A stretch of DNA of 64,000 bases from Dactylellina haptotyla. Its lineage: Eukaryota; Ascomycota; Orbiliomycetes; Orbiliales; Orbiliaceae. A program made the translations under genes and the position numbers. Numbering within the stretch: position 1 is the stretch's first letter; each line of letters starts with the position of its first letter. The notes under the pieces are model-generated. The model was not told the origin of the DNA and made no database searches. It saw only the letters and a list, made by a program, of their open reading frames with translations. This document shows, piece after piece, positions 8,301-64,000 of this stretch. The stretch lies in contig CM062382.1 in the NCBI GenBank assembly GCA_031310005.1, positions 1 through 64,000 on the forward strand, written 5' to 3'.

Positions 8301-11300
8301 TCAGTCTTATCGCATCACCTTTTGAGTCTGGATGTTTGTGATCCATCCAGAATAGACGCTTCTTCATCCCTGGAACGCGAGGGTAGTCTGGAACTTTATC
8401 CATCAAGCCGGGATAAGTCTTCAGCCGTATTAGATCTGCAATACTAGGGTGCATGCGTCGCTGCGTATTGAGGCTGGCAATAGGAAATTTGAGGCCCAAG
8501 ATTCCATAGGGTTGTCTTGCTAGTCTCTCAAAAAGGGAAACATCGAGGGCATACAACTGGCCTTTCTTGCTCTCTACAGATAGATCGAAGTTTGCAATAT
8601 GTGGTCGAAGCTGTTCGTGGTCGCCAATAAGGATCATATGTTCAATAGAGGGAATGAGGGTAGTGATAGTGTGAGCCTCCAGTATTTCTGTAGGTAATTA
8701 AAGATATTAGCACCTATGATGGGATCAATTCAAGATAGTATACTTGGCATACCTCCTGCTTCTTCGCAGAACAACACCTTTGCATTTATACGCTCGAGTA
8801 AATCTGCGTGGAGAGCTAAACTCGTTGTTGTGACGCCGATTATATCTGCACGTTGAAGAGCCCGTTTATCCCACTCCTTCCTCACTATCGATAACTTTTC
8901 GCTCACTTCATGATGCCTCTCAGTTACATCAGCCAACCCCGCAGTAGCATTTTCTACCATCTCTGTCTTCCAGAACCTTAGAAGAGCGAATCGTTCCGCT
9001 GGGTTGAAGGTCCAAGGGTCTATACCTTGGGATCCAGCAGCCAGCAGCCAGGTGATAGGCCTTCCATCTGAGCCTGGGCGTGCGTGTTTCCTCCATGCAG
9101 TGAATGGCTTTTCTTTTCCGTTGCCACGCATCACTATGAATCCTTCCTCATCTTCAACTTCCTGAAAAAGACGAGTATGGAAAATTGGATGATGATCCTC
9201 TAGATGAGACTGAAACGTAGCTTCTGATTCTGAGTTTGAAAGTATCCTACAATAATCGCCGGCTTCTGTATTTAGTTCTCTCATCTCTTCTCTCAGCTGC
9301 CACATAGCCTTCTTTTCTAGCGGCGTATTATGAGAGTCACGACTAAGATTCCTAAGTAGGCAAGATTCTAGTCTCTCAGATTTAGATCTCGACCCCAGCC
9401 GGATGATGTTCTTGACATCGATATCTAAAAGATGTTCGAGAAATTGGTCCAGAGCGTGGTTTGTATAGCAGCTTGGTGCATTCAGTTAGTTGAAATGCCG
9501 CGTGGCGGACAATTGAATATTTAATAGAAAACTTACACACAGATGATAGGCCCTATAGGCGCCCTAGATTTATTTGAAAGCAAAATCTTAATTAACTTTG
9601 TTCCCACAAAGCTTTTTCCGGTTCCAGGTGGACCTTGGATCAGCCCGACCTCGCGGGAAAGGGCTTTTACTAGCGATCTTGCTTGCCCGTCGTCAAGAGT
9701 GGTATTCTTCATCAATCTGTCGAGATCAAAATATCCGGACTTGGGCAATAAGTGTAACGGTGTCTCTACTTCTTCGGTGAAGATGGAGTTCAATTCAAAA
9801 TAGAACCCTGTTTTAGAAGCATATGGTGGCGGTCGTACGGCTACCTTTGTCCTGCCTTCGACATCTTGCTGAAAATCTACTGATGGATCGGGGGCAAGCC
9901 AATCAATGAAAGGGATCGCCTGCGTTTTATTGATACGTTTCTGTAAGCCTTGGAGAATTGGGCGAAAGGAGGCTAATAGAGTTCGTGGGAACTCTATAAG
10001 ATCAATCTGAGAATTGTAGACAGAAGATGCGAGTCGATAAAGCCACTCAACATCTTTCTCTCGAACAGCGTCCGCAAAGCTCAAGATAATTCCAGCTCGA
10101 TGAGGATCTTCGGACAGGGTTAGGATCGGTTTGTTTGCGTCTGGTACGCGGTCGTCTTTGTTTCGTTCTCCCTTAATATCATTTCGAGTTACAAACCGAT
10201 CGGAGACGGTGAAGAACGTGGCTTCATTTTCTTCATTCAATATGCAGACGAGAGTACTGAAATCTAAGATTTTCTCATTTGCCCACCACTCTCTTCGATC
10301 TCGTGCCGTTGTATTGGGGATAGGCTGATCAAATGTAATACCTATTTTCAGTCCGTGGGTACTACTAAAGCTGATATCCTCAACTTTAACATTTTGATGT
10401 ATCAGAACAGCAACTCCAGCACTCGAAAACCGCTTAACACCGTCATTTTTTTTGCGCTTTGATCTCTGGAGATTATCAAGGTTTGCGCGGTTCTCGATAA
10501 TTTGACGCAGAGATTCGCGGAGGCAACCGATATTGTCTTCTCGTAAGAGGCGAAATTGAGAATCAAGTAATCGTTTGCTTCTATCAGCGTAGAGAGCATC
10601 GCCTCCCATCTTTGGTAAGTACTCTGCTTCAACACTCCTGATCTCTTCAGCGGTTGGTAAAACTCTAATATCTGCAATGGAGGCGTGGTCATTATCGTGT
10701 CTAGGCCCGAGATCCGAACGAGTTCCTGGCAGCCTGATAGTTGCCTGAACGGCAGGATGGAGTTCAGTCTGAGCGAATCCTCTGATCTGGCCGTTCCCGC
10801 GAGCTTTCTCGGGAATTAAAGATGGGATTTTCTCCCCCAGTTTAAGTTGCTCGTTAATTACTTTGAAGTTCTGATGAAGATATCGCATTTCCGGATTGAC
10901 CAGTAAGTTTTGCTCTTTAGCTTGTGCCAACGCATCTCGAGATATTTGCTTTATGCCATCATGTACAATGGAGTTCGAATTAATCTGAATAGTACTTCTA
11001 AGGGCCGATATTACCATGGGAAACACCTCAGAGTAGAGCTCCGGGTCTAGCCCCATGAGAGTTCTGGAACGTGATAGTAGTCGCTCGAAAAACCGCGCTC
11101 CACGGGTTCCCTGAGTGCCATATACGACATTGTAGATTGTTCCTGCGTATTGTTCGGTAACAATGGAACCCGTGAACTCTGTATTGGTAATTATGCGAAG
11201 GAAAGGTATCGCGTGCGTAGTAAAGTTAATGGTAGGGAGTGAGCCATCGTATGCGAAATCGGTTTCCAACAATTGTCGAATGTGTTCAAGATTTTGGGCT

Positions 11301-11689
11301 TCGGCAAGCTCTTTGATAACTTGCTGGACGTTCTCCGCTTCTTTCTCTTGAACTAATCTAAGAGCTCCCTCAATAAATGTCTTCATCTGGATCGCCGAAT
11401 ATTGGCCCCGGATTCTGCATATCTTCCTCCAGCTTTGGAGTGGAGTAAGGGGGGCGACAGGGGTCGGATCCAGGTTATTTCTTCGCGGTGTTGATGCTGG
11501 CTGAAGACCTTGTTGAGCATCTTTAGTATGAACAGGATGCCCGAGCTTGCATTTCTGTTCCCACCTGCATTTGCCATGCCGTAGAAAATCCTTACATGCT
11601 TGGACTGTGGTTTCGTCATGAGAAAATCGGCACACAGCACGTTTGCACTTGCCTTCTCGCCACTGAAAGCATATGGTTGCTGATGACAT
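5366..11689 (-). CDS. NFX1-type zinc finger SF1 helicase (ZNFX1/Hrr1-like)
   Basis: Seven exons, read from high to low coordinates: 11689-9537, 9471-8753, 8687-7981, 7923-7823, 7758-6352, 6289-5575 and 5509-5366. They add to 1,981 codons plus stop, with introns of 57-65 bp. Domains in order: two CCCH fingers (C7-x7-C-x4-C-x3-H and C32-x8-C-x5-C-x3-H); a long linker; a superfamily 1 helicase core with Walker A GPPGTGKS near residue 686, the CYTNHALDQF motif, Walker B-like CEEAG, GDHEQLRP, and VLLSRAKWGMYIVGN at the end of RecA2; an array of NFX1-type Cys/His fingers (GCSRRCEWRLGCGH, HSCQKNC and others); and a C-terminal RZ-type finger split by the last intron (GHWYRCPNGH, then CGQAM, C-x2-C, IGGxNH). 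Relatives are S. pombe Hrr1, which acts with the RNA-directed RNA polymerase complex in heterochromatin assembly, and animal ZNFX1. A role in RNA silencing is inferred from the family. The exon 5/6 acceptor (6290) was chosen on phase. Confidence 0.93.
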
Positions 11690-14675
11690 ACTGTGCCGAT
11701 TTCTAGTTGTCTTACTCGCAGAAACGAAGTGATTGGTGTAACTAGCAGACTAGCTACTCAAAGCGGATGGAAATATTTGATGAAGTGTGATATATTTTGC
11801 TGAAACCCCACGCTAGGGGCCGTATTTTTGATATATTTAGTTGATTCTTGCTGCTAAAGAGCAATTCATAAAAGCCAAAAATAATTAAAAGACTCAGATC
11901 GAGTAGTCTACTTCTTGATCGAAGGCTGCTTTAGTACGGATATGAGATGAAGGGTAGAATGTCGATAGTTCTTTGTAAACAAAAAGGTTCCAGTGGGAAG
12001 GTTATCTGGAAAGAAATTCCACAGGATACTATGTGGTTCCTCAATTGCATCACCTTTGTCAATACTGAAGTGCGAATGTATCCCGCTCAGCATACATTTC
12101 TTGCCTGAAAATCGATGCCAAGACCTGTGACTTCTGTATACACTATCAATATGTTCCAACACAGACAATTGCTAGTGAGCTGTCCGATTGGTCAATACTC
12201 ATCCCGTGTCTGGAAGTGGTTCCAGGTATTCCTCATGGCACAAACACAGGCATAGTGGTAGTTCTAGACCCATTACAAAGGCGGCTAGTGTCGAGAATAT
12301 CTGAACAAAGTAGCTGCACTACTTTATCACTAGTACTATAGTACAACTACCGCAGCCATTTTGCTGTTTTCTAAATCGCAAATCGCCAACTGCAGATGTG
12401 TATGTAGGCGCAAAATTGGTTTTTCTTGAATGTAAAAACAATATTAATTGCCTTGGTTCCCAAGCACCCCACTTTCTAGACTATATTTTCTAGCCACAAG
12501 ATATCAGCTTACTAGTCGGGTTCGTTTGTCACCCAGCGAATTGGATCCTATTTTCCTCAGAAGAAATGAAATATCCCCTTCGGAATATTCGATTCCAGCC
12601 ATACTCGGTTCTCGCGGAGGTACCTGATTGAACGTTTCTGAAAACGCAAACGCGACTTTGCAAATTTGAATCACCACGAGCTCTTGAGGTTAGGCAAAGC
12701 CCTGGTCAACGCAAGAAAATTTATAGCCTCACTCTGTGATACTGAGTCCAGCTTAAATACCTCCTTCCTCAAGAATCAAAGCTAGGCCGCGGGATAAAAA
12801 TCAAAAAATTTTTTGGCTATCGGACTGGGGTGGAGAAATATTGATATGACTTCGTTGGTTCGGCCTTGCTATCGTATAAAGATTTGGTGGTCCTATTTTC
12901 AACCTTAGGCGTGGAACCATCCAATCGGAAGGTCCATCAGGTTCCCTGTAGTTTTGGCTTCCTCCGTGCCGCGAGCAAGCAGGATAAAGCTGCGAAACAA
13001 GCCAGCGGCAAACAGACAATCCCAGTCCAAGGATTAAGGCATGGTAGCAACATAGCCTCTACCACCACCACTCCCCAGCAGCTAAGGATTTTATGCATCG
13101 GTGGCCTACTAGTTTGAGAGCCGAACCGGTCTATCACATTTCTAATTCTCAAAATATATAATTTCGCTTTCATGTGAACACCGAGACGGGTATCCAGTGT
13201 TGAAGGTCCTATTTTAGCTTAATGGGCTTTCTCAGGCCGTGGTCATGAAGGCCCACTAGCTTTTTCTGGAGATATACTTTGTGGGGGCTTGTAGAATTCT
13301 GATATGAGTGTCTCACTAGTTATCTCGTGATCTCTTCGCTGGAACCTGTCTAGCAAATATTGGGGGTGGAAAGACGCCGAATGAGAAAGCCAGCGATAAT
13401 CTGAAGCCGGAATTCCGAGTATATAATGATACAAGGGTGAAATTTAAGGACGTCTGAGGCTTCAGAACTGACTGGTGAATAGCAGCCGTTACTGGGTCCT
13501 GTAGAACCATCCTGGCTACAGATGAGATGCGCCCTGACGCTGACGATATTGCCTCCGATATCCTTGCGGCACTGCCCGTTAAGATTTTTCCAAGCAAGCC
13601 ACAGGTTTCGAGCAAGGAAGACATACATCTAGGCAGATGGTATTACCGCCCTGGGGGTCTGCTGAGCACTATACGAAATCTACAAGGTCAAGGGAAGGAT
13701 GGGCTAGATGGTAGTTAAGCTGTAGGCCAATAAACGAGAGGTAATAGTCGCTACCGCCGAAGAATTATAGTCGCGTAGAGGCTTAAAATTGAATTCTAGG
13801 CAGCATCGCACGCCAGCAGTTTATGAAGATACGCAGCCCCCGAATGACTGACAAGACAGTTCTAAGTTAAGTTTCCAGCAGCCGCTTATTATGCGAATGC
13901 CTGCATTGATTGTGTTGTGTTGGAAAGTATTAAGCTTACCTATTCAGGGAATTTATTTCTCAAAACGGAAATGCTCGGTAAGAGAACAATGTGGCCCAGC
14001 GTCTGGTGGAACAGTCAGAGCCTCGCCAACCACGAATCCATCCCAAGAATCCTTCACCACAGAAAAATCAGATGGCATACTTCTGCGAGCCTATTACGTG
14101 GTTACCGGATCCGCACCTTCGTGTTTTGGTTGGTATTGAGCTGTTGACCCCCAACCTTGCAAGGTAGAATTTGAATATGTTTGTTTCTATCTTGCTCAAC
14201 CTTCGATTCTGTTTTTGGTGGGTAATCGGGAGGCCGCAGACCTTACTAAATTAGGGAGACCCCTGCAACTTCTAAAGTTGCCTGAAAATTGGATTTTGGG
14301 GGTGGTAGCTCGATCCCCAGGCGAGCATCTCCTCGCTGTTGTGGCAGACCACAGATAAAACTCGGTCCGCCCCTCTCGATATCGCGGGATATTGGACTTC
14401 AATCATCTCCTCCTTCGCTGGGGGGAGCCTTATCTTTGTCTTGGTTCATCTATTATTGCCTTCTAGGCCATTTGATACCTTATTGAGTATTTCACTTACC
14501 TTATTGTTCCCGAACGGGATCGCTCGGTCCACTCTGCGAGGCTTTCAATAAGCCATCGCTCTTTCATCGAGAGGCTCAGGTAACACACCAGGTGACTGTC
14601 TACAGTCGTGGTGTCTGAGTTTCGGTCCCTATCCTTTACCTTTATCCTTTCTCTCCAAGTTTATCCAAAATTCAG
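11690..14675. other. Gene-poor region, only orphan open frames
   Basis: About 3 kb between divergently oriented genes. A minus-strand frame ending at 11908 (open from about 12168, but without an ATG at its beginning) reads like protein (for example PHSILWNFFPDNLPTG) and might be a relic, but nothing was recognised. Overlapping frames at 13316-13718 on both strands are equally unsupported. 14400-14675 is pyrimidine-rich, lacks any ATG, and is probably promoter, leader or intron of the following C2H2 gene. Confidence 0.45.
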
Positions 14676-48377: not shown

Positions 48378-51300
48378 ATGGCAAAAGACAAAAGTCAAAA
48401 GGGTGAGTTAAAGTCAGGGTTCCGGTGATACCAAATCGACTAAATCCAATATACCAAATAGTTCGCAATGGGCCAAAGGCAGACCCTTCGGTCGCTGCTG
48501 TTGGTTCAATTGATTCAATCCCAGATGTAGCGATTGCGTCGTCGCTTCAAATCAATAGCGAAGTGGTTCCTACCCCCCAATCAAAAAGCCGACCGCTTGG
48601 GACTTTGCCCATGGATATGCCAGGTAGCAAGGCGGAACACACGAATGGATCATCCGCGGCTGGATCTTCTGGATATAATTCGGGCAATGTCGGCTCCACG
48701 AATCCCGAGTTTTCTGGATCTGCTGCCTCTACGTTTGAGTCTGCTGGGTTTAGATCATCGACATATGAGCCAACTGGATTTGGATCTTCCACCTTCGAAA
48801 TGGTTGGAGTTGGATCGCCTATGTATAGCCCGTCGGTGCATGGTTCTGCACTTGCGTCTAGAGCCCAGATTACAATGGAAGTTAACAGTTACCACAGCTA
48901 CCATGCAACTGCCCCTAAGTATCAGTCGTTCTCAACATCTTCCGCCTCGGCGCCGCCAGCCTTCCTTGATAACCTTGAAGCGAGCAGGCTGATGATCCAG
49001 AGAGCGAGGGTGGAGCTTGGCCCCAATGCTGATAAGGTGTTGAAAGGATGCCCTAATCTTGATAGCTTTAGAAGATTTGTCAACGCCCAGAGTTTGCGTG
49101 ATATGCCGGATGAGGGTAGCGTTTTGGATAACAGTTTGCGATGGTGCGGTCAGTTTGCGGAAAGATTGGAGGTTTTTTCGCAACAGATCTCATTGTTCTT
49201 CCCCGGAGGGAAACAAACCGCGACGCAGCTCCTTGGTTGCTGCAAAGTCTTACTCTTGGTGAGTTTGGCTTGAACATTCAAATTAATTTATACTTCACAT
49301 TCCTTACCAGCAAATTAGATTAGCTCCCGAAATGTCGACGCATTGCAAAGGTTTTTCGATGAGTTGTACAAGATATCAACTGCTCTGGGAGTTTTGGAGG
49401 CGCATGGAGATCTCTATGTTTCCTTGGTCGATTTGCAAGCACTTCTTACGGCTCTTTTCAGCAATGTCATTGAATTAGTTGTTCGTGTTACGACATTGTA
49501 TCACGAGAGACGAAGTAAGTCAGTCCGCCGGCTTTGGGGGATATTCGACTAATTGGGTCAATTTATAGTCACCAGGGACTTGATCACAGAATGCGAAGAG
49601 CTTATAACTTCCATCGTGAGGAAGTTTCTCGCCAACAAAAGAGATCTCGAAGAAGAAATCTGGCACCATCGGATCAAGGAATCGCCTATTGTACAAGGTA
49701 TGTATTTGGGTGAAAGTCTTTGCACTCTGCGATTACTAATGTTATTAGGATCGGGCCCTATTTCGGTCGCGGATTTGAAAACTTGGTTGCGCCAGGGTAC
49801 TGTTGAAACGCCGAAGCCCACAATCTGTGAAGGAACATGCACATGGTTCGAGAGAACTCTCTCAGAATTCAAAGATGGAGAAGATCAACTTCTTTGTGTC
49901 TTTGGCAAAGAAGGCAGTGGCAAGACGATGCTCGCCAATTGGATCACCGATCGTTTGCGAGCACATAGACAAGATGTGTTGATGAGCTTTGCTTTTGGTA
50001 GGTATTCCCCTTGCAAGCTTATTACGCGCCTCGACTAATGGTCTTACAGAAACGAATACTAAATACGGAACTTCTACTGTCTTCATGCTAAAATCCCTTC
50101 TGCTGCAATTGTTGGATAAGAGTCTCGGAAACGTGGCACTTTTCAAGCGGCTTGCGGATATTTACATAACGGCGACCTCTAACCAAGGCAGTAGGGGCGA
50201 GGCGATGATAGAAATGGCCCTTTGGGACATCTTTGGGGAGTCCGCGAGGTCTACAAGGCATCTAAATATAGTTATTGACGGACTGGACCACGTCTCTGGT
50301 GGTAATCAGAAGGCTCATGAAATCGTCACCAGGATCCGCGAAATCATTGATGCCAACGGTCCAAATTCTCTCAACTGCATACTTACTTGCACACCTTTCG
50401 AAACTGATGTTTCTCTTCAGTTCACTGCTTTAAACATCGATGAAGAGAATACCAGATACGACTTGAAGATTTATGTCACCAAGGTTCTGGAAGACTTTCT
50501 CAGCGCGGCCAATGTAAACTCAATTGACCGCCAAAACATAATCGATCTTCTCTGTAAGAAAGCTGCTGGCTCGTTCGTCATCGCGAATCTCTTGATTCAA
50601 AACGTCAAGCGTGGGAGAAATATAGCAGAAATCATCAAGACTCTGGGTGATTCCAACTCCTCTGGAACTGCAGGTCTTCTGGATGCTCTCCTCACAAATG
50701 TTGATTTTAAAAATCCGGATACTATGAGAATTATATCATGGCTTCTCGTCGCCGATGAACCTCTCTCCGTGCACAATATAAGAGAAATACTTGAGATCAA
50801 CTATTCCGATGAGAAGCCACCTTTTCGGTCCCCAAGACTAAAGTGGGATGTCGACAGAGACATAATTCAACCTTGTGGAAACCTTGTCGTTCTCGATCGG
50901 AATCTCATCCAATTCTCTCATCCTTCACTTAAAGACTTATTTTGGAAAAAGGCGGGCATCGACAAACGACTTCCGTGCGCTAAAAGATGCCACTCTGAAG
51001 TCTTGCTTAGTTTGCTGGCCTATATATCGACATCTAACGTATCACTACGCTCTGAACATTCCTTTGGTACCATCTCTCGGGAAACATGCGACGCGGCAAT
51101 ACAAACCCAAGGTCTTCTTGGCTACGGCGTACGGAAGTGGCTTGTTCATTTCCGACAATCTCAGTACTTTCAAGATGGGAAGACAAGCAAGTTGAATGCC
51201 CCTTCGCCGCTCATCAAGGTTTTCCCCTCGGACGCAAGCTTTGCACAACTGGAATATGCGCTCTGGCGTAATGAACAGGTTCAAGAGAAAGACTTTGCGC

Positions 51301-54300
51301 TTGCCGCTGAGGTCAGACAGTCCATTCTTATGAGCGTTCCAGCAACAATCCATTCTTTTATGAATCTCATGAGAATCAGGCTGTTTCTTGGCGATTGGTC
51401 TTCTGCCCTTCAAGTTTGCTTCAAGGCGTGGAAAATAAGTCAAACTCTATATGGCAATTTCAGCGACGAGAGTTGGGAGATAGCCAGCGTTTATTCCTCC
51501 ACAAGTAGGGAGCACGATGATATTGAGTTTGGTCGCGAAGTTTACGACTGGATCATAATGTACTGCAAGAACAAAAATCCTGACATCAGCAAGGAGATCA
51601 TCGATGTCGTGAAGCGACATGGTGGCAAGCTTTCGGAAAGAGGGAAAGATCAGGAAGCCATAATTCATTATCGTTGGCTCTGGGAAAATTGCTGCCAAAA
51701 GTTTGGAGAGACCGATGAACGGTCTTCTTCAATTTTGGATCTCATGGTCGGGATTCTTCAGAAAGATCCCTCATCGACGGAGTATCTTGATATTTGTACG
51801 AAGCAGTTAACCGTTACTGAAAAAAGCCTTAGACCATGGGATAAAGAGAGAATCAAAGCCATAATCCGACTCTCTACAGCATATGAAAAAGCCGGGCGGA
51901 TGTCAGATGTCAACAAGGTTTTCGACGACGCTATCAAGGCATTGACGTTAGCGTTAACAAAATCTGGAAGCGAGGACCTCATATTCATCCACGAAGAACG
52001 AATCTACCTCATCGTGCATTTCGCCAATTTCTACTTTCGGAATTCCAGTCGAGACAGTGGCTTGCTTCTGTTGAAAGAATTTTGGACGAAGTACCGACAA
52101 GATGTGCAAAATTTGAGAGCGCATTCCCCCGGATTGCTGAAAAATTTGAATCTTCTAGCTGAGATTTTGGAGTCCTCGGACCTTAACGGAGAAGCTGACG
52201 AGCTTTACGGCTCTTTGTGGATTTATCTCAAACAAACGCAGCAGCTAAGTACGAGTACATTTACCTACCAGGTTGCCAGCGGTCTTGCGAGGTTAAGAAA
52301 ACGTGGTCGAGGTGACCCAAAGGAAGAAGAAACCATCTTAACGGAACTTGTCGATATTCTTAATCCGTCGGGAACAAGGGAAATAGCGGACGCGGGGCTT
52401 GATGCTTTCACTCAGCTTGGAAGTTTGTACGAAGGCCAAAGCGAATGGACAAAATTGATCACCACCGTTAGGAAAGCACTGATGCTTGCCTGGCCAGCTA
52501 TAGTTCCTGGCCAGGAAAGAGCAAATCTCAACCTACCTCAGGTTTTCATGGAGAAAGGCATACAATTGGTGTACCTTTTAGCACTTGGATATGCAAAACA
52601 AGGCGATCTGAACGAAGCCTGTACACTATACAGACTCGTGCACCAAGCTTGCCAGAATACACTCATGCCAAACACTCAGATAAGAGTTATCAGGGCGTTT
52701 AAAGAGTATTGCATTTTCTGCGATGCCAACGGCCACGGTGGGGAAGCTGTCGAGGCGTGCGAGACTTATTTTGAGACATTGTCCCGAACTCCTGGTTTGT
52801 CGCACGAAAGTACGCTGGAAATTGGTGTTCACTTAGCGGAAATGTACCAAGCAAAGAAGCACGCAGACAACGCTATAAATGTGTACAGGAGAATCTCTGA
52901 TGCACTTCTCCAGACCTCGCTGACAGCGCAGAGCTTCAAGATCATGGCTACGCTATTCTCGCTATATGATAGAACGCCGTCGAAAGAACATGAAGCAATC
53001 CAATTTTATATAACATTCTGGGGGAAAATCACCACAACTACAAATCTTGGATTTGTTCCGGACGCCGAGCTTATTTTCAAGGTTTACCAGAAGTATAGAG
53101 CACATGTTGAAAGATCAGGGAGACCAGCGGCTGAACTCCTAACCACTACGCAACAACTTCTAAACTACTATCACAACCATGGGAGTAAAGATGACAAGTT
53201 TTATTTCAAGGCTTTACTATGCTACGCTCAATTACTAGAGTCAGATGGTACTAGGGTAAAAGAAGCGATTGAAGAATACGAAAAGCTTCTAGGGATGGCC
53301 CTCAGAGTCGCTGGAACAACAGACAACACGGCCATTATCTTACAAATCCAACAGAGTCTCGCCAAGATGTATCTTCTCGATAAGAGTACAGAAAGTAAAG
53401 CCGGAGACTTGTACTATGGACTGTTTCAAGAATTTAAAGCCACTCATGGCCTCAGCCATAAGTCCAGCTTAGGTTCTCTTCAGCAGCTAGTACAGTTTTA
53501 TGTGAATCAAAAGGATTCAACAAAAGCGGTCCAGCTTTTGGAGCATACAACAATCGAGATTTTGTCATCGGAGACTAATGAGCGAGCTTTGTTCGATTGT
53601 GCCTTATCGACAGGTAAAATGTTCAAAGTTCTCGGCATCCAGAAGGTAGCAACTAGCTTGGTTCAGGCGCTTCGTGGGTACTGCCGAATGGGTCCGGAGG
53701 AGAGACGCTTATATGATGAGAAAGATGGCCGTTTCAAGAAACTGGTTTTCAGAAACTCACATATGCTCATGACAGAACGCAGATACCAAGTTTTCTTCTC
53801 AGCCATGGAAATGGTGTCCCGAAGCGATGTCCAGGTCCAGACCGATGACGACCTCTACTCTAGAGTCATAACAGTTGTCCTTCAAGAATCCGAGTACTAT
53901 ATGGCATGGCTGGCAGCTACCAAGTTTGGGGAGCGGCTAGATGTCATTCTCGCGGCAGGTGCCCGCCTTAGAGTATTTCTCAGAGCGCAGGGTCGAGAAG
54001 AGGAATTTAAATTTGTCGAAAACGATCTCAGAGCGATTTTCCAACGAGAATTCAAAACATTTCAACCTGATAACAAACCAAAGACCGGAATTGACCTCAA
54101 ATTCTCCGATGATATGCTGGACGAGTTTTTCCGAGAGTGTCTCAATCTGTTTGCCAGCTCTAACCAGAGACAAAGCTTTTCTCTAGTTGACGTTGGATTG
54201 AAGCGTGTGGAGGCAACAATCGAACATGGAGACATTGACGCAGCCTTCATTCTTTCCGTCTGGACCTACAAATTTCTGACTGAAGAGAATAAATTGGTGA

Positions 54301-55241
54301 ATATTCTACGCATTTTGTTTTACATGACATCCGAGAAGGTTAAAGCCACGCCCAATGACATCTTACGAGCTGATATCAACAAGTTTACTCAAATTATCCT
54401 TCAAGATATCTTGTCAGCCCAAGGTGGAATGGGAATCTCCTGGGTTTCTGTGAAACTAAGAGATATTCACCAGTTGCTAGTGCTTCTGGGGTCTGACAAT
54501 CGCTGGGATTTCATGTTGAATATCCTTGAGCAGCTCTGGGACTCTCGAAATAGCCATGATGATATTTGGAGCCCGCATCTGGTTACGATGATTGGTTGTC
54601 GTTTATGCGACGTTTACATGAAGCAAGGAAGGAAAGAAGCTGCACTGAGGGTGCTGGAGAGAATACAATACAACTACCTCCGCGTTTTTGGCCCATTTCA
54701 TGTTGAAACACAGCAGTTTTGCAATCTACTCTGTAGGGTTTACAACAGCGCAGGGTACTACAACAAGGCAATCACGGTAAGCGAGAGGCTTCTCCAAGGT
54801 CTACTGGAACCAGGGAATGCCAGCTTGTTCCCGAAAGAACAAGCTTCCAACTTTATCTTCAGCCAGCTTGACTTGATGAAGTACTCATACCATAAGAAGG
54901 GAGGGTCACCGAATCTCGACAACATGGTGTTGCTGGTGAAACAGCTGCAGACGTTATATTATGTGAAGAACTCGAGCTGGAACGACCTCGCTGATTTCAG
55001 GGCTTGGAGTAAAAATGCGCTTGCGAAAGAAGAATCTCACTTTATTTGGCAGGCGCCAGAGACGTGGGGTTTATTGGAGGACGACCATAGCTTGTATTCC
55101 GAAGACCGCGATGTGGTACGCGCCTTGCCAAATGGCGATGAGAACTGTGGCCAGGCCCCCCACAAGACAGCTGTCTCCCACAAAGGAAAGGATTTCATCG
55201 AATTCGCTCGTTCTTCATTCACGTCACTATTTGATAGTTAG
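48378..55241 (+). CDS. Giant NLR-like STAND protein (NACHT NTPase with long helical-repeat C-terminus)
   Basis: Exons 48378-48402, 48462-49258, 49319-49514, 49569-49697, 49749-49997 and 50050-55241 join in phase into 2,195 residues. Five introns (51-60 bp) lie in the first quarter; the remainder is one 5.2-kb exon. Layout: a low-complexity Ser/Gly/Thr N-terminus with three 10-residue repeats; a helical N-terminal domain (about 170-380, for example DALQRFFDELYKISTAL) typical of fungal STAND proteins; a NACHT-like NTPase with Walker A GKEGSGKT (about 435-442) and Walker B LNIVIDGLDHV; a winged-helix-like segment; and about 1,600 residues of TPR-like helical pairs (GEADELYGSLWIYLK, NEACTLYRLVHQAC, KEAALRVLERI). 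In the family such proteins act in nonself recognition and regulated cell death, by nucleotide-dependent oligomerisation. Ligand and effector function are not readable here. No stop or frameshift was seen in 6.6 kb of coding sequence, so the gene is under purifying constraint or young. Confidence 0.88.
48731..48820 (+). repeat. Three 30-bp coding repeats in the STAND protein N-terminus
   Basis: Units 48731-48760, 48761-48790 and 48791-48820 encode TFESAGFRSS, TYEPTGFGSS and TFEMVGVGSP. They are diverged at the DNA level but in register, so the expansion is not recent. Confidence 0.8.
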
Positions 55242-56126: not shown

Positions 56127-59100
56127 ATGTCGGAATCCAAAGACTCAGGGGTTATGTCCTGTGATGCAGTATTCAATCACGTAGTCTTGCCGCCCCAGCT
56201 CCCGAATACGGAGGACGGTGACGTCGATGCCGTCTCAACTGCCCTCATCAACCTGGTAACATCCGCAGTTCAAGACATCCGCAAGCTTACCCACGATCGA
56301 TGCCACAACCAGCTTTACTACGTTCACCAGTCTCTCATCAACCACCAAAAGGTTTCCATAAGCGGTGCCATAAACAAGCAGATTCTTCTTCAGCAACTTC
56401 GGTCTCTCGAAGATAAACATCAAATCATCCTGCATGTTACAAAACAGAACGCGGCGCTGCTTATTAGACGGGAGCGCAAGTATGTTTCATCTTACCTTGA
56501 TTCCCATCCTGCTCAACTGCAGCTAATCACTGGCAAACTAGTTCTTCCGCAGACAATATTATTTTCGAGGCGTTCGAGGCTTCACCAACATCCCATAAGG
56601 CACTCGAAGCTAAATCTGCCCTCCAATGGGACTTCCCAGGCATCGCAGTCTCGGTGTCATATTCCACCTTCATCGTAGTTGAGTTCCAGGAAGAACTCGC
56701 CACTTTTTTGGAACAAGCGAGTAAAGAGTCGATCAAACGTTTTGCCGCAACTACCAACAAAGCAGCGTCTGGAGCTTGGGAGAGTCGCGACACCGTAGAC
56801 CCCAAGCTTATTACAGGCCTGATGATGAGTCTGTTGGAAGCAACTGGTACTCGCGTTTTTCCCCCTCTTCTGAGGAAGAGAGTAAAAGATGACGTTTGCT
56901 GGTTCGATGGCCTTAATCCGTGGAGAAGACATCCGACCTGGCTTATCCTCAGAGTTGCAGTTGAGAGGCACCTCCAGCAACTATTTAATCCAGAAGAGGG
57001 TAGAATACAATACAAGTTTCTGAAGTGTTGGTTGTTGCAAGATTTGCTCAAAACTACCTTCCGCCAAATACACCCTGAACGAAGTATGCTTCTTCAAGCA
57101 AAGCTATGCCGCAGAGTAGCAAAGTTGGAACGAGAAAAGCTGCTGGCTTCAGGAAGCTCGCAATCAACCTACTCGTATTTCCTTGAAAAGCTTCGCCCAG
57201 TTGTATGCGATACTGTCCAATTGGTTGATGGCAATATCAAAGATACCTGGGGCCATTATTGCCAACACATTGAGCGACGAATAGCCACCCTCCCTCGCAG
57301 AGCAGACAGTCACGACACAACCTTAACGCTACCGAGTAGCGGTGGATATCTTGACTCGATACTAGCGGATTCAACTGCGAGTGCTATGACACATCAGATC
57401 ATTAGCACTTCTTCCCAGGGCAAAGAAGTTCCCCAAGATGGAAGAAAGATTTTTGCCGCATTCGCTGATCGCCACTATAAGTTCCTGGCGATAGATGCAA
57501 GTCTTACGCAACTCAACATTAACTTCTATCAATCCGAAAATATTTCTATAAAGGAAAAATGTATCAAGCTCTCGACACAACTTCTAAAATATTTGGAAGC
57601 TACTGGCAACCTCTACAACGGAGTGCCTGAGGCATTTTCCAGGTGTATTCTCCAGATTCTAGAGACATGGGTTTCCCTTGATCAATATGCCGTCACTTTA
57701 TATCCTCTGCTCAAAGACTTCCACCCAGTTTTAACAGCCGAGATGCTGAATTCCTTGCATATTGAGTCTGCTCAAGAATTTATACGATTACAAAAGTTGG
57801 ACGAGTACCTTAGACGGAGAACACAAGAGTCGCAATATAAGACGTCCATTTTCGCAGATCCTAGCAAAGGGTGCTTTGCTGATCAGTATGTTGCCTACTC
57901 TACCGAGAGTAGTAGGTTTGAAGAACTGCGGAAACACATAGAGACCACAGCAGAGACCAATCGAGGGCTGAAAGAAGCAGAATGGAAAACCAAAACCGCT
58001 GAATTTGAACAAATTACGCAAGAAATACTGGCTATCGATTGTCAATTACAACTTTCAGATGATTACCCTCCGGTACAGCACCATGACATGAAACGCTGTA
58101 AAAAGTGTTTCCTCGAAAGAAAAGCACGAAGAATGAGAATTACCATCCACGAACACCCTCTTCCGGAGAGTGTACCTCAAATGAGAGCTGTTCTCTTCGA
58201 ATTGTTGTGTCCGCAAGCCTTCGCTTCATATAGAGATATTACTTGGAAGATAATTTCAACTTTGACACTTCCGGGTCTCCATCCAGCTAGTGAACCACGC
58301 CTTATTCTCCAAAATTACTCTGGACTTGCTGGATTCGGGGTACGGCCTCAGACAGCCGTCACCTTGGGATCAACTAAGAAGTCTTTCTTACAAACACACT
58401 TTGCAGAAATATCCTTACCCACACCATTAGAGAATGTTTGCGTGGCGAATGGTCTCTTCCTCAATTATTATGATACGGTTCAAACCCTTTGGCCAGGGCG
58501 ACTGACGCTTTCGCCAACGCTTTCCCACCACTTTCCATACCCAATACCAGAAAGCTCACCATTTGCACCATATGTTCAAGACATCGATCCCAAACATCCT
58601 CCGAGTTCATATGAGGTTGTTGCTAGCCAGACGCTATGCCCGACTGGAGCAAATATTCATGAATTTTTGGGGTATCAAGGTCTCTTGGGTGGCTATTATA
58701 GGCGACTTCCATCGATTCTTCTTGAGCTAGCATCTTCCAATCTTAATTTTAGCTCCGAGACAATATCATCGATCGTGAGATATCTCATTCATCAAGCCGG
58801 CCCGTCTCATGGCAGCGAGCCACTTCGGAGAGCGCATGGCTGGTATCAAGATACAAGCTTTGCATCCCAACTTCTAGATCAGATCTCAAATCGACTAGAA
58901 TTAATATCATCGAACTGGCGTGAAGTTCATTGTATGGAGATGCTCATTAGTCTGTTGACGAGAAGTATAGATATTTGGATTGAATTCGGTACGGATGATG
59001 ATACTCTCAATAGAGGGCTCAAGCTTCTCGATAATATTCGAGCCGTCATATCCACATGGCTTTCGAATTTGCGAGACGAAGTCAACAACACTGAGAAAGC

Positions 59101-62100
59101 CCAGTCATCTTGCCGATTCTCAGAATTTGCCTTATGGGCTGCACTTCTCGGACGATCAACTTATTCTATTCACGGTCGGCATCCTCGCAAAGTACCATTC
59201 GATTGGAATCAAGTTGAAATATTTATCAAGTGCTCAATAATGTTGCAGCACCATCTCTTTGTCAACCCCGGTTTGCTTCCAGCCAGCCTTAGTAGACTTT
59301 TGGTGAAAGATATTCGGATCGCGTACCGCATAGCACCGCTTTTGGCAACTGCAATTGCTAGTCACCCAACAGCGCTTCCTGCTGCATTAGCGCTTGCGTG
59401 GCCTCAAGATGAAGATACGAAATATGAGCCAGCTGAATTTCTTCCCCAGCCGTATCAATGGTGGATTCGAATAGAGCTTGCAGGGACGCGAAAGAAAAAA
59501 TCGCAAACCGTTCTTTTTCACTATGTAGAAGGCCACTTGCTCCTCAACGGTAAGCCTTTAGGACAGCTGCCGCCAGAGCACCGCAGTAGTCCCATTGTTA
59601 AAGAGCTATTTGGTGCCCAGAATCTTTTGACCGGACCCTCAAGACTCCCGGGAATGACTTACATGTTATGCCGGGAAATCGACCGTCACCGGGTCCATCT
59701 GGGTTTCCGAGGGCAATCTTTAGTTATTCGGGCAGAAATCAGAGGCTCCCTGCTCGAGTATATCCCCAGGGAAGTCTTCAAAGATCATCAAGGACAAGAA
59801 GACCTACCAGCATCATTAATGGACGGCTGCTTTCATTGACTAGATCTCATGCGAGGAAATCTCTACGTCCGTCAGACTTGCTGGCGTGAAAAGCAAAGCG
59901 ATTGGACTATCAATTTATACCAGAGAGAAGCCAAACGAAGAGAAGTTAAATTAGTCGATCGATTCAGTCCACTATTCAAGAAGATCGCCACAATTTTTAG
60001 CAAATTCGAAGCAGAAAGACATTTGACGGTTTTCCAACCGCGATATCGGTCTCTCTCGGTCGAAATGCGGCGTCTCGAACTGAAATGGCAGGTGAACCAC
60101 CAAGGTTCCCTCGAAAGCGAAGCGCTTCAGGCATATGTCGACGAAAATCAAGATGCTGGTACTTGGTACGGGCTCAGAAGCAAGATTGTTCTTCACGATA
60201 CCGTGGGCGATAACAGGAGTGTACTTATTCCTCTCAATATGCCCAGATGCAGGCAGAACGGACCACATGTTGAGATAGAAATTCTCAACAAGGGTGTGTA
60301 CGGGCAGTATTATATCAACGAGATACTGGGGAGAATCGACTGCCCCCCGGAGCCGCTCCTACTGTTCACTAAAGCCTTAATACATGCCTATACATCTTTC
60401 GTGTTGCCTGATCCGCTTACAGGAAGAACAGGCACTGAAGAAGCTCTGCATTGCTTACAATCTGGGTACTGCCAACCTTGGTCACCTCTGAATCCTCGGC
60501 ACTACTCTCTGCTGGAGAGTCTAGCAAGTCTCACACCATTCCGTGAATACTACCCTGAAGAACTCAAAGTGATGCAAAAAGTTACCTGGGATCCCCGCCT
60601 CCGCAGCTACACCCAACACGAGCATTTTTTTACTCTAATACGGAAAATCATCTCCAAGTCGGATCAGCTTCAACTATTCAGCAAAGATAAGACAGAATCA
60701 CTGTCTCTGGACCGTGGGCATCCTGATCTATTCAATAGGGCCAAGATTCGACGGAGTCTGTATGAGCGCGATAGTAACAATTACTTGGTGGAAATGCCAG
60801 ATGATGTGGTATATCATTCGCGAGGATATGTCGCTGGATATACTGGGCGCCAAAACGTTTATGAGGTCGCCTATCACCTCCACAACTGGAACCAAAATCT
60901 CATACTTCCACACGATATAGCTACAGTTTTGGAGAAATGGCCCACCATTGGTGGCTTCGAAGGTCTATTTGAAAAAGCTTTGCTGAGTGACAAGCTAGAC
61001 ATCGAGATGCCTCTGTTTTGGGGCTCTCTCGTTCGGCAATGCCAGGTAGCTACCAAAGCGGATCGGTACAAGCTAATATTTATTATTGCTACGATTGTAT
61101 ACAACAACCACACCGTTGACATGGAAGCTATCAGATTGTTGGTGGCCTTTGCAACTAACCCCGATTTGAAAACCTGCAAATTACCTCCTGGCGCTACGTT
61201 TACAAGTTTCCGGCGGAATCCCAGCTTCAAGGCTGAGGCTCTACAGCAACTTATCAAGCCATACTGCAAAGCTTACAACAAGTCCGAACTACAAAATGGA
61301 ACAGGTTTCGCTTTACATGGCAGATATCGCAAAAGGCTCGAAGCAATGGAGAAATCGTTTGACTTATCAGTTGAGGAAGAATGCGACAAACTTATCAGGA
61401 ATTTGATTGACCAATGGCCGTGCTCCCAGCCCAGTATTACAATCACCATCGCCGACGATTTGATTGATGTTGGCCAAGCGCTTCTAATCATCCAACCAGA
61501 GTGGACTCGATTGTTTTTCAACCTCCAACTTTCGAACCATGTCGATGAAGTCCAAAAAATTCTTCAAGATTGTCGCAACATTCCTGCCGCAGCACCAGAG
61601 CCGAACAACAAGAAGCAAAGGGGCCCTAGTAAGATTTCGCGAATTGACTCTCGAATTTCGCTGCACGATTTCCTCAGAGCACATGGTTTGAAAGCTTCAA
61701 ATAAACTTCTTGCCAGTTTTCTTCTGGCTAAGCGTAAGACCTCTTTGTCTACAAAGAAAACCGACCTGGTAGCCGTCCTAAGTACGTTACCACATGCAAG
61801 TGAAATTAAAGAACTCGAGGGTATCGTCGAAGAAATCTCGCAAACAAGTTCAATCGTCAGACAACGCTACGCGAACGATCTGAGGCAGAGTATTCTGAGC
61901 TTCAGGGAAGCTTCAAGAATTCGCGTCTTTCAACAAAGCGGCCCATTGTTATCGGATCCAGCTAGTAGAGTTGAAAATGCTCGAGCTCGCACGACATGGT
62001 TACTTGAGGGAATACAACGCGGAATGGAAGAGGCAGAGCCCTACTTCTTTTGGTTGAAGCTTGGGAACCTCCTACCCTGCACCACCAAAGTATCACTGCT

Positions 62101-64000
62101 TGAGACTATCCGATCTTGTAACAACATTCCATTCGGACCCGGGATGAAAGAAAGCTTGGTACTCCTTGGAGTGACTATTACTGATTTACAACAGCTTCTT
62201 CGCGTTGGGATTTCTCGACTGAAGAAAGACATTCAGAGAACAGAGGAAGAGGAGCGAAATCCAGGGCACCAAAACTGGGAGCCAATGCAGTTCCCAGATT
62301 GGCTGCTTTTGGAGATTGATTCAAATCTTTTGCTAAGACCAGAACAGATAGAAGTAGCACACGCAACAATAAATCCAGCTTCTGCAGAGAACTCAGTGCT
62401 ACAAATGAATATGGGACAAGGTAAGCAGTATACACTCAAAGTAAAAACCAAGGTCGTACTCATTTCGCTATCATAGGCAAAACCTCCTGTATCATGCCTA
62501 TGGCAGCATCATCGCTAGCAGATAGCAAGCGACTAGTCCGAATAGTCGTACCACGTGCCCTGATTCTTCAAACGGTTCAAATGATACATGCTCGCCTCGG
62601 CGGGTTAGTTGGCAGAGAGGTTAGACATGTACCTTTTTCTCGTCAAACTTCTACCTCCCCAGAAACTATCAAGGTCTTCCACAATATCCATCTCCATATT
62701 TTGAAAAGCTCCGGCTTAATGGTCTCGCTCCCTGAACACACACTATCATTCATGCTGAGTGGCTTGCAACGTCTCTCAGATGGACTTTTGGACGAAGCAA
62801 GACCCATGATTCGAGCGCAGGACTGGCTAAATAAATTCTCACGAGATATATTAGACGAGTCTGATTTTACGCTGGCCGTCAGAACGCAATTGATATATCC
62901 TTCTGGTTCACAGAAAGTGTTCGACGGACATCCTAACAGATGGAAGTCCGCTGAGGCACTTCTAGCGCTCGTTGAAACTTACCTCCATAATATCCAGACT
63001 CTCTATCCCCGAAGCATAGAAGTTGTTCAGCGACCGGGAGGTGGTTATCCTTTCATTTATTTTCTGCGTCGAGATGCAGAGGATAACTTGATTAAACGCT
63101 TGATTCATGATATATGCACAGGGAGAACCTCAATTCTCCCGCTTGTTGACTACCCCACCACAGTTCAGCAGTACGTAAAACAATTCATATCTGAACCAAA
63201 GTTACCGTTGGATTTGGTGGACGAAATTCGACGCACCTTTAACGGCAAGGCATCCATGTTGAAAACTATATACCTGCTCCGTGGTTTATTTGTTCACCGC
63301 ATTTTACTTCTTTCTTTGAAAAAGAGGTGGAATGTCCAATATGGGCTTCATCCTACTAGGGATCCGGTCGCAGTTCCTTATCACGCTAAAGGGGTCCCGT
63401 CAGAACAGGCAGAATGGGGACACCCAGATGTCGCCATCCTTTTTACATGTCTCTCATTCTACTATCAAGGTTTAAGTATACACCAGCTTAGTCAGAGCCT
63501 CCGGTTTGTGCTACAATCCGATGACCCTGCGAGTGAGTATGACAGATGGATACAAAACTCTGAATCTCTACCCGGCTCACTACACGAATGGAACTCTATA
63601 AATATAGACGACGAAGCTCAATTAAAAGAAATATGGGACCATGTTCGGTACAAGGTAGTGGTCATTGATCACTACCTGAACAACTTCGTCTTCCCACGCC
63701 ACGCCAAACAATTTCTGACAAAACTTCAAGCTTCTGGGTGGGATATCCCGCTCTTTGCGGCTAGCGATAATGGCCCAAACCGATATGGTAGAGGGATTAC
63801 AACAGGATTCAGTGGCACAAACGACAATAAAACGATGCTTCCTCTAACCATCAAACAGGAGGATCTTCCAACACTTTCCCATACAAATGCAGAAGTTCTC
63901 ACATACCTTCTTCAGCCACGAAATCGAGACTACGTCCTCACAGCAAATACTCAGGGACACCGCTGGACCGAAGAAGAGCTTCTCGTAAATCTCAAAGAAA
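56127..64000 (+). CDS. Giant DUF6606-DUF3638-DUF3645 protein with an in-frame TGA, 3' end beyond the window
   Basis: Exons 56127-56479, 56542-62420 and 62477-64000 (continuing) cover about 2,585 codons. The N-terminus is DUF6606 (FNHVVLPPQLP, then NIIFEAFEASP, ALQWDFPGIAVSV). The middle includes AGTWYGLRSKIVLHD, YGQYYINEILGRIDCP and the highly conserved VLPDPLTGRTGTEEALHC. DUF3638 begins near LLRPEQIEVAHATINP and NSVLQMNMGQGKTS, a P-loop-like motif split by intron 2. It continues with RLVRIVVPRALILQTVQM and HVPFSR. DUF3645 follows (KRWNVQYGL, VPYHAKGVPSEQAEWGHPDVAI, CLSFYYQGL). Databases often label the family ubiquitinyl hydrolase; I see nothing here that proves this, and function is unknown. 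The oddity is codon 1217, TGA at 59837-59839 in the same frame on both sides. Orthologues have Trp there (context CFH-W-LDL). If obeyed, the product ends before the DUF3638 region. The rest of the frame is clean. Confidence 0.85.
59837..59843 (+). promoter_or_regulatory. In-frame UGA in a readthrough-type context (UGA CUA G)
   Basis: The bases TGACTAG interrupt the DUF6606/DUF3638 gene. The reading frame is identical before and after, and family-conserved sequence resumes at once (LDL, then NLYVRQ). UGA followed by CUAG is the best-characterised leaky stop context in eukaryotes and is used in fungi for peroxisomal isoforms of glycolytic enzymes. Because LDL is itself conserved, the CTAG could be coincidental coding sequence after a plain TGG-to-TGA mutation. 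Confidence 0.6.

Follow-up and report, generated by a model that had tools for sequence, protein, structure and literature searches.

A Derived In-Frame TGA in a Published Leaky Context Within a Giant DUF6606/DUF3638/DUF3645 Gene, Probably a Recent Nonsense Allele

A giant DUF6606/DUF3638/DUF3645 gene was interrupted at codon 1217 by one in-frame TGA. The stop was derived, as judged from the codons of its relatives, and the gene was otherwise undecayed, as is expected of a recent nonsense allele. With a probability of about 0.72, the TGA represents a recent, partly leaky loss-of-function nonsense allele of the giant gene and no designed switch. A fresh null allele had been listed among the alternatives in an earlier note on this DNA, and it was this alternative that fitted best.

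Gene Model and Domains

The window, that is, the whole stretch of DNA analysed, spanned nucleotides 1–64,000 of contig C4 in a genome of 39.8 Mb and 11 contigs. The giant gene extended from 56127 to C4:65839, past the window end (Table 1). Its model, which was predicted without RNA, had five exons and a CDS of 9,453 nt (3,151 codons, terminal stop counted). Splice signals, reading frame, and the paralogs guided the placement of the four predicted introns, all of which were GT-AG, with lengths of 62, 56, 74, and 68 nt. Exactly two stops were present in the predicted CDS, at codon 1217 (context CAT TGA CTA GAT CTC ATG) and at the terminal codon 3151, and the product on readthrough of codon 1217 would have 3,150 residues. 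The earlier note had described a single in-frame TGA CTAG in an otherwise intact gene, an N-terminal product of 1,216 residues, and a frame open for at least 1,300 codons past the TGA. The TGA was indeed the only internal stop, the length of the N-terminal product was exact, and the open frame reached 1,933 codons, about one third of which were outside the window. The other two frames held 82 and 99 stops across these codons; hence, the open downstream frame was regarded as real coding sequence. A frameshift near C4:65255 was considered and rejected, because the intron at 65157–65224 kept the frame open and matched the C10 paralog.

Table 1. Positions of the in-frame stop and of the parts of the giant gene. 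Positions are those of the window unless C4 is given.
Feature	Position	Strand	Basis
In-frame TGA, codon 1217; Trp TGG in relatives	59837..59839	+	Sequence, gene model, relatives' codons
TGA CTAG, high-readthrough stop context of the literature	59837..59843	+	Sequence and motif in published excerpts
Exon 1: start codon and first part of DUF6606	56127..56479	+	Pfam and gene model
Intron 1 (predicted), GTATGT...CTAG, 62 nt	56480..56541	+	Gene model
Exon 2: DUF6606 remainder (to ~57052), stop, DUF3638 start (from ~62267)	56542..62420	+	Pfam and gene model
Intron 2 (predicted), GTAAGC...ATAG, 56 nt	62421..62476	+	Gene model
Exon 3 (to C4:64315): DUF3638 remainder (to ~62994), DUF3645 (63349-63447)	62477..64000 in window	+	Pfam and gene model
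Exon 4	C4:64390-65156	+	Gene model
Exon 5	C4:65225-65839	+	Gene model
In-frame ATG nine bases past the TGA, context CTC ATG C	59849..59851	+	Sequence

According to the Pfam matches, DUF6606 was located 5′ of the stop and both DUF3638 and DUF3645 were located 3′ of it, in agreement with the family motifs that had been claimed for both sides. All three profiles scored above their curated cut-offs, which placed the gene in this family: 186.4 bits for PF20255 (DUF6606; cut-off 27), 69.2 and 210.1 bits across two exons for PF12340 (DUF3638; cut-off 31), and 63 bits for PF12359 (DUF3645; cut-off 25). Searches by family name found no dedicated paper on the function of the DUF6606/DUF3638/DUF3645 family. 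Three motifs were found 3′ of the stop, namely, GQGKT at residue 2076, DESH at residue 2658 (encoded outside the window, after DUF3645), and AAMRLRQLG at residue 2691. We take these to be a Walker A motif, a DEAH-like box, and a helicase-like motif, respectively. Since all of them followed the stop, a truncated protein of 1,216 residues would lack the ATPase-like part. Intron 2 interrupted the coding sequence of the GQG/KT motif, and in L029, one of the relatives described below, the frame broke at the same place.

Relatives and the Ancestral Codon

Four relatives of the giant gene were compared. Two were paralogs in the same genome, on contigs C10 and C6, and were approximately 23–44% identical by stretch. 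The other two, L029 (NYXK01000198.1) and L030 (NYXK01000134.1), came to light when genomes of bacteria and archaea were scanned, and they lay in a MAG labelled Deltaproteobacteria. They carried DUF3638 genes with best segments 58% and 50% identical to the window gene, respectively, and L029 covered the protein from after its first 454 residues. The frames of both broke at short intron-like gaps, some of which matched intron places of the window gene. They were therefore taken as fungal, and on this pattern they are probably fungal contigs that were wrongly binned, or contamination, in the deltaproteobacterial MAG. A search of viral contigs for relatives of the giant gene gave no match, and the 601-bp region around the stop had one match in its own genome.

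At the column of the stop, TGG was present in all four relatives, so that the Trp that had been expected of the family at this place was confirmed. The following codon varied among them, with CTT in L029, CTG in L030, CTA in C10, and ATG in C6. The stop was present in none of the four, all of which were distant (the two closest were 36–59% identical by part). Trp was shared by all four relatives in 14 columns, and the window gene had Trp in 12 of these, Leu in one (residue 840), and the stop in one. Because all four relatives have TGG, the TGA is the derived state of an ancestral Trp codon, and a single G-to-A transition is its simplest origin. The stretch of 41 residues with the stop at its centre had an identity to L029 of 0.425, compared with a median of 0.366 over residues 475–2070; among these residues, the stretch was at the 67th, 67th, 69th, and 58th percentiles for L029, L030, C10, and C6, respectively. 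In these alignments, the stop sits in an aligned stretch whose conservation is ordinary to slightly above the median, and in no variable linker.

The origin of the stop by RIP was rejected. A C-to-T change at CpA is the signature of RIP, and inspection of the relatives' codon placed the changed C of the opposite strand before C and not A. Moreover, the TpA/ApT and (CpA+TpG)/(ApC+GpT) values, judged by the usual RIP index thresholds, were 0.69 and 1.36 before the stop and 0.78 and 1.20 after it and were not RIP-like. A sequencing or assembly error, in which the genomic base at the stop would be other than A, is quite unlikely. It draws support from the fact that a single base deviates in 9.5 kb and is known from the window's own assembly alone. 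However, the site (TTTCATTGACTAGATC) contained no long homopolymer or repeat, an assembly of 39.8 Mb in 11 contigs points to long reads, and the gene model had no frame break. Long-read errors are mostly indels. We infer that the base is real.

Absence of Decay After the Stop

No second stop or frame break was found in the 1,933 codons after the TGA in the gene model. In a Poisson calculation, the probability of no lesion fell to 0.05 at a neutral divergence of 0.012, 0.007, and 0.005 when indels were set to 0, 5, and 10% of substitutions, respectively. Because there was no second lesion, unconstrained decay was limited to at most ~0.5–1.2% divergence.

Codon adaptation was trained on 4,052 codons of three other reading frames in the genome, namely, those of the adjacent NLR-like gene and of the paralogs on C10 and C6. 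Its mean log w was −0.207 before the stop (1,180 codons) and −0.211 after it (1,874 codons), with p = 0.71 by block permutation. When the upstream half itself served as the training set, the score was 0.18–0.20 per codon in four upstream blocks and 0.06–0.14 in six downstream blocks, but this training was circular, and the difference was removed by independent training. Amino-acid changes private to either the window gene or L029 were counted against an outgroup, over the columns in which all three sequences had a defined residue (no gap, X, or stop). With L030 as the outgroup, the window gene and L029 had 69 and 78 such changes before the stop and 163 and 245 after it; with C10, the values were 51 and 76 before and 98 and 151 after; and with C6, they were 62 and 61 before and 75 and 105 after. 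Among positions identical in the four relatives, the window gene was changed at 3 of 59 before the stop; in the two parts after it, the counts were 5/40 and 10/168. The same measure applied to L029 as a control gave 6 of 62 before the stop and 5/40 and 18/176 after it. Thus, no excess of amino-acid change after the stop was found in the window gene relative to L029.

The absence of both a second lesion and decay implies either that the stop is very young or that selection still acts on the sequence downstream of it, and the data are compatible with both. The earlier note had described a simple pseudogene or null allele as one whose close relatives all carry TGG and whose downstream part collects further disabling changes. 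TGG was seen in the four distant relatives, and further disabling changes were absent. One derived stop, no other lesion, and intact relatives are features that the present gene shares with nonsense alleles and single-stop pseudogenes. Unlike ordinary nonsense alleles, the stop is in a strong readthrough context, at a Trp that the near-cognate Trp-tRNA could restore.

Stop Context and Readthrough

Passages of PMC4207609 describe UGA CUA G as leaky in Ustilago maydis and in HeLa cells. In the excerpted text of PMC5133446, the readthrough of human MDH1 is given as ~4%; the human-cell data of that study show insertion of Trp and Arg, and insertion of Trp, Arg, and Cys at UGA is cited for yeast. 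Readthrough depends strongly on further bases, and an excerpt of PMC12233894 places LDHB, with the same motif, >15-fold below MDH1. These three sources support the claim that UGA CUAG promotes readthrough, and the TGA CTAG found here is identical in its letters to the motif that they describe. Because Trp is inserted at UGA according to these passages, readthrough could yield some near-ancestral full-length protein.

The giant gene offered 1,295 possible one-step nonsense changes, 327 of which give TGA. Of these 327, 24 give TGA CT, 5 give TGA CTA, and 3 give TGA CTAG, the present one included, which corresponds to 3/1,295 of all one-step nonsense changes. With 3–5 of 327, the leaky context is expected in just 1–1.5% of one-step TGAs. 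This rarity speaks against a young allele, since a random nonsense change seldom lands in TGA CTA(G). We judge that it raises the odds of a role for leakage very roughly 30- to 100-fold, to be read with the low prior for a mid-gene programmed stop and with the fact that the finding was picked partly for its context. Better tolerance of leaky nonsense alleles would act as a simple filter and produce this enrichment with no adaptation at all, and leaky stops might also be the ones that selection tolerates longest.

This rare context, together with the undecayed sequence 3′ of the stop, is what speaks for programmed or selected readthrough, in which a protein of 1,216 residues and a few percent of a protein of 3,150 residues would both be useful. 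That reading is nevertheless unlikely, because TGG stood in all four relatives, CTA was not conserved, the stop occupied an ordinarily conserved stretch and no linker, and the folds around and after the stop were no better than shuffles (z of 0.50, −0.02, and −0.16). RNA structure as a driver of either readthrough or editing was rejected on the same z values. A conserved stop and context, as in functional readthrough, was found in none of the four distant relatives. For the two-product gene that had been proposed in the earlier note, the Trp ancestry and the leaky context stood, whereas its settled status did not, with the stop absent from the relatives and the next codon not kept.

The seven-base context is the same as that of MDH1, LDHB, and the fungal PTS1 readthrough genes in passages of PMC4207609 and PMC5133446. 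Those stops are terminal and have short extensions, whereas the stop here is mid-gene, precedes 1,933 codons, and is shared by no relative. Selection on the leaky TGA CTAG as a switch, with a low dose of the ATPase-bearing full-length protein, a Trp-tRNA restoring the ancestral residue, and the N-terminal 1,216 residues acting alone, is a doubtful proposition. If it were true, it would be a filamentous-fungal case of mid-gene functional readthrough that extends the protein by >1,900 codons, and a selected leak would mean dose control by readthrough inside a fungal gene. To our knowledge, no cellular gene of a fungus has so long a mid-gene extension. Reinitiation at the ATG at 59849 was rejected by inspection of its start context, CTC ATG C, which is poor relative to the consensus.

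Editing, Intron, and Selenocysteine Alternatives

Editing, intron, and tRNA-Sec alternatives were examined (ALTERNATIVES). A-to-I editing of UGA to UGG in the mRNA during fruiting had been suggested in the earlier note and is scarcely credible at this site. In-frame UAG-to-UGG editing is well documented in Fusarium and others in passages of PMC4817773 and PMC11156358, and the present gene resembles the PUK1-like premature-stop-correction genes of PMC4817773 in having an in-frame stop at a Trp in a filamentous fungus. However, the premature-stop cases in those passages are UAG, with U at −1 in the PUK1-like sites, whereas the A of the present UGA stands in a GAC triplet, with G at −1 and C at +1, both of which are disfavoured. 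In Fusarium graminearum, the edited sites have U at −1 in 85.74%, G at −1 in 4.98%, and C at +1 in 6.93%, and GAC is named among the rarely edited triplets (PMC4817773, as excerpted). At minimum energy, the A was paired within a stem in the 63-nt fold and lay in a one-base internal gap in the 103-nt fold, in neither case in a tight hairpin loop. The centroid of the longer fold left the A in a 40-base loop, which is in favour of editing, but neither fold was better than shuffles. Furthermore, ribosomal protein L4 was closest to those of two structures, whose species we take to be filamentous ascomycetes, and was without the seven-residue gap that both share; this is a weak hint that the organism is no sordariomycete. 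The mitochondrial L4 protein was uninformative about its placement. An excerpt also reports A-to-I editing from a pezizomycete.

An unrecognised intron that removes the TGA is very improbable. Around the stop, TTGAC looks like a branch point and TAG like an acceptor, and 13 frame-keeping GT-AG pairs of 40–200 nt span the stop (donors from 59600, acceptors to 59989). Moreover, an in-frame TAG of the C10 paralog, read by eye, is such an acceptor, at the end of a 60-nt intron. In our judgement, though, none of the 13 pairs joined a good donor to a good acceptor, and each candidate was at least 102 nt long and would delete at least 34 residues of a stretch that aligned to L029 and L030 without a large gap. 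A selenocysteine UGA was rejected because tRNA-Sec (RF01852) had no match in the organism's own genome at E 0.001, where 53 of 3,444 first-look candidates were scored. ARAGORN in its bacterial setting found no tRNA genes in the window.

Expected Consequences of the Stop

In the preferred reading, that of a recent and partly leaky nonsense allele, a single G-to-A substitution would have converted a conserved Trp codon of the giant gene to TGA in the copy that this strain carries, and most ribosomes would stop at codon 1217. A stop with introns downstream is expected to expose an mRNA to NMD. With three introns after the stop, the giant-gene mRNA would probably be an NMD target, and any 1,216-residue product would be made without the ATPase-like part. 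UGA CUA G may let a small share of ribosomes, perhaps ~1 percent, read through, sometimes with Trp. For this reason, the phenotype of the allele would more likely be that of a strong hypomorph than of a clean null. As a young nonsense allele, the stop would be an ordinary event and a natural knock-down in a giant gene family. It also raises the general question of whether persisting nonsense alleles are enriched for leaky contexts through better tolerance.

Census of In-Frame Stops and Neighbouring Features

In-frame stops with at least 100 open codons on each side were counted on both strands of 144.6 kb (C4 1–79000, 19 kb of C10, 18 kb of C6, and L027–L030), a sample too small for a genome-wide rate, and nine were found. 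Two of these had at least 800 open codons on each side, namely, the TGA at codon 1217 and the TAG of the C10 paralog, which was the intron acceptor. The other seven had at most 160 codons on at least one side. By eye, the C10 TAG was the exact 3′ end of the 60-nt intron at C10:2164740–2164799 (L016:3740–3799, minus strand). Since the length of this intron is divisible by three and the TAG at its end is in frame, its retention would give a stop. The giant-gene family thus does show intron artefacts, but none was seen at codon 1217.

Directly upstream of the giant gene, a putative NLR-like gene was present at 49553–55241 on the plus strand, with a 161-codon frame followed by a 1,751-codon frame. 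The former matched NPHP3_N above the cut-off and NACHT below it, and the latter had TPR matches. The minus-strand frame at 9536–11749 gave CCCH zinc-finger-like, ZNFX1-like, and AAA_11 matches, all below the cut-off, and is a candidate ZNFX1/NFX1-type helicase. At C4:69066–70502 (L003:66–1502), a 478-codon open frame contained a long run of DPAATGGT-type repeats and possibly encodes a secreted or cell-wall protein.
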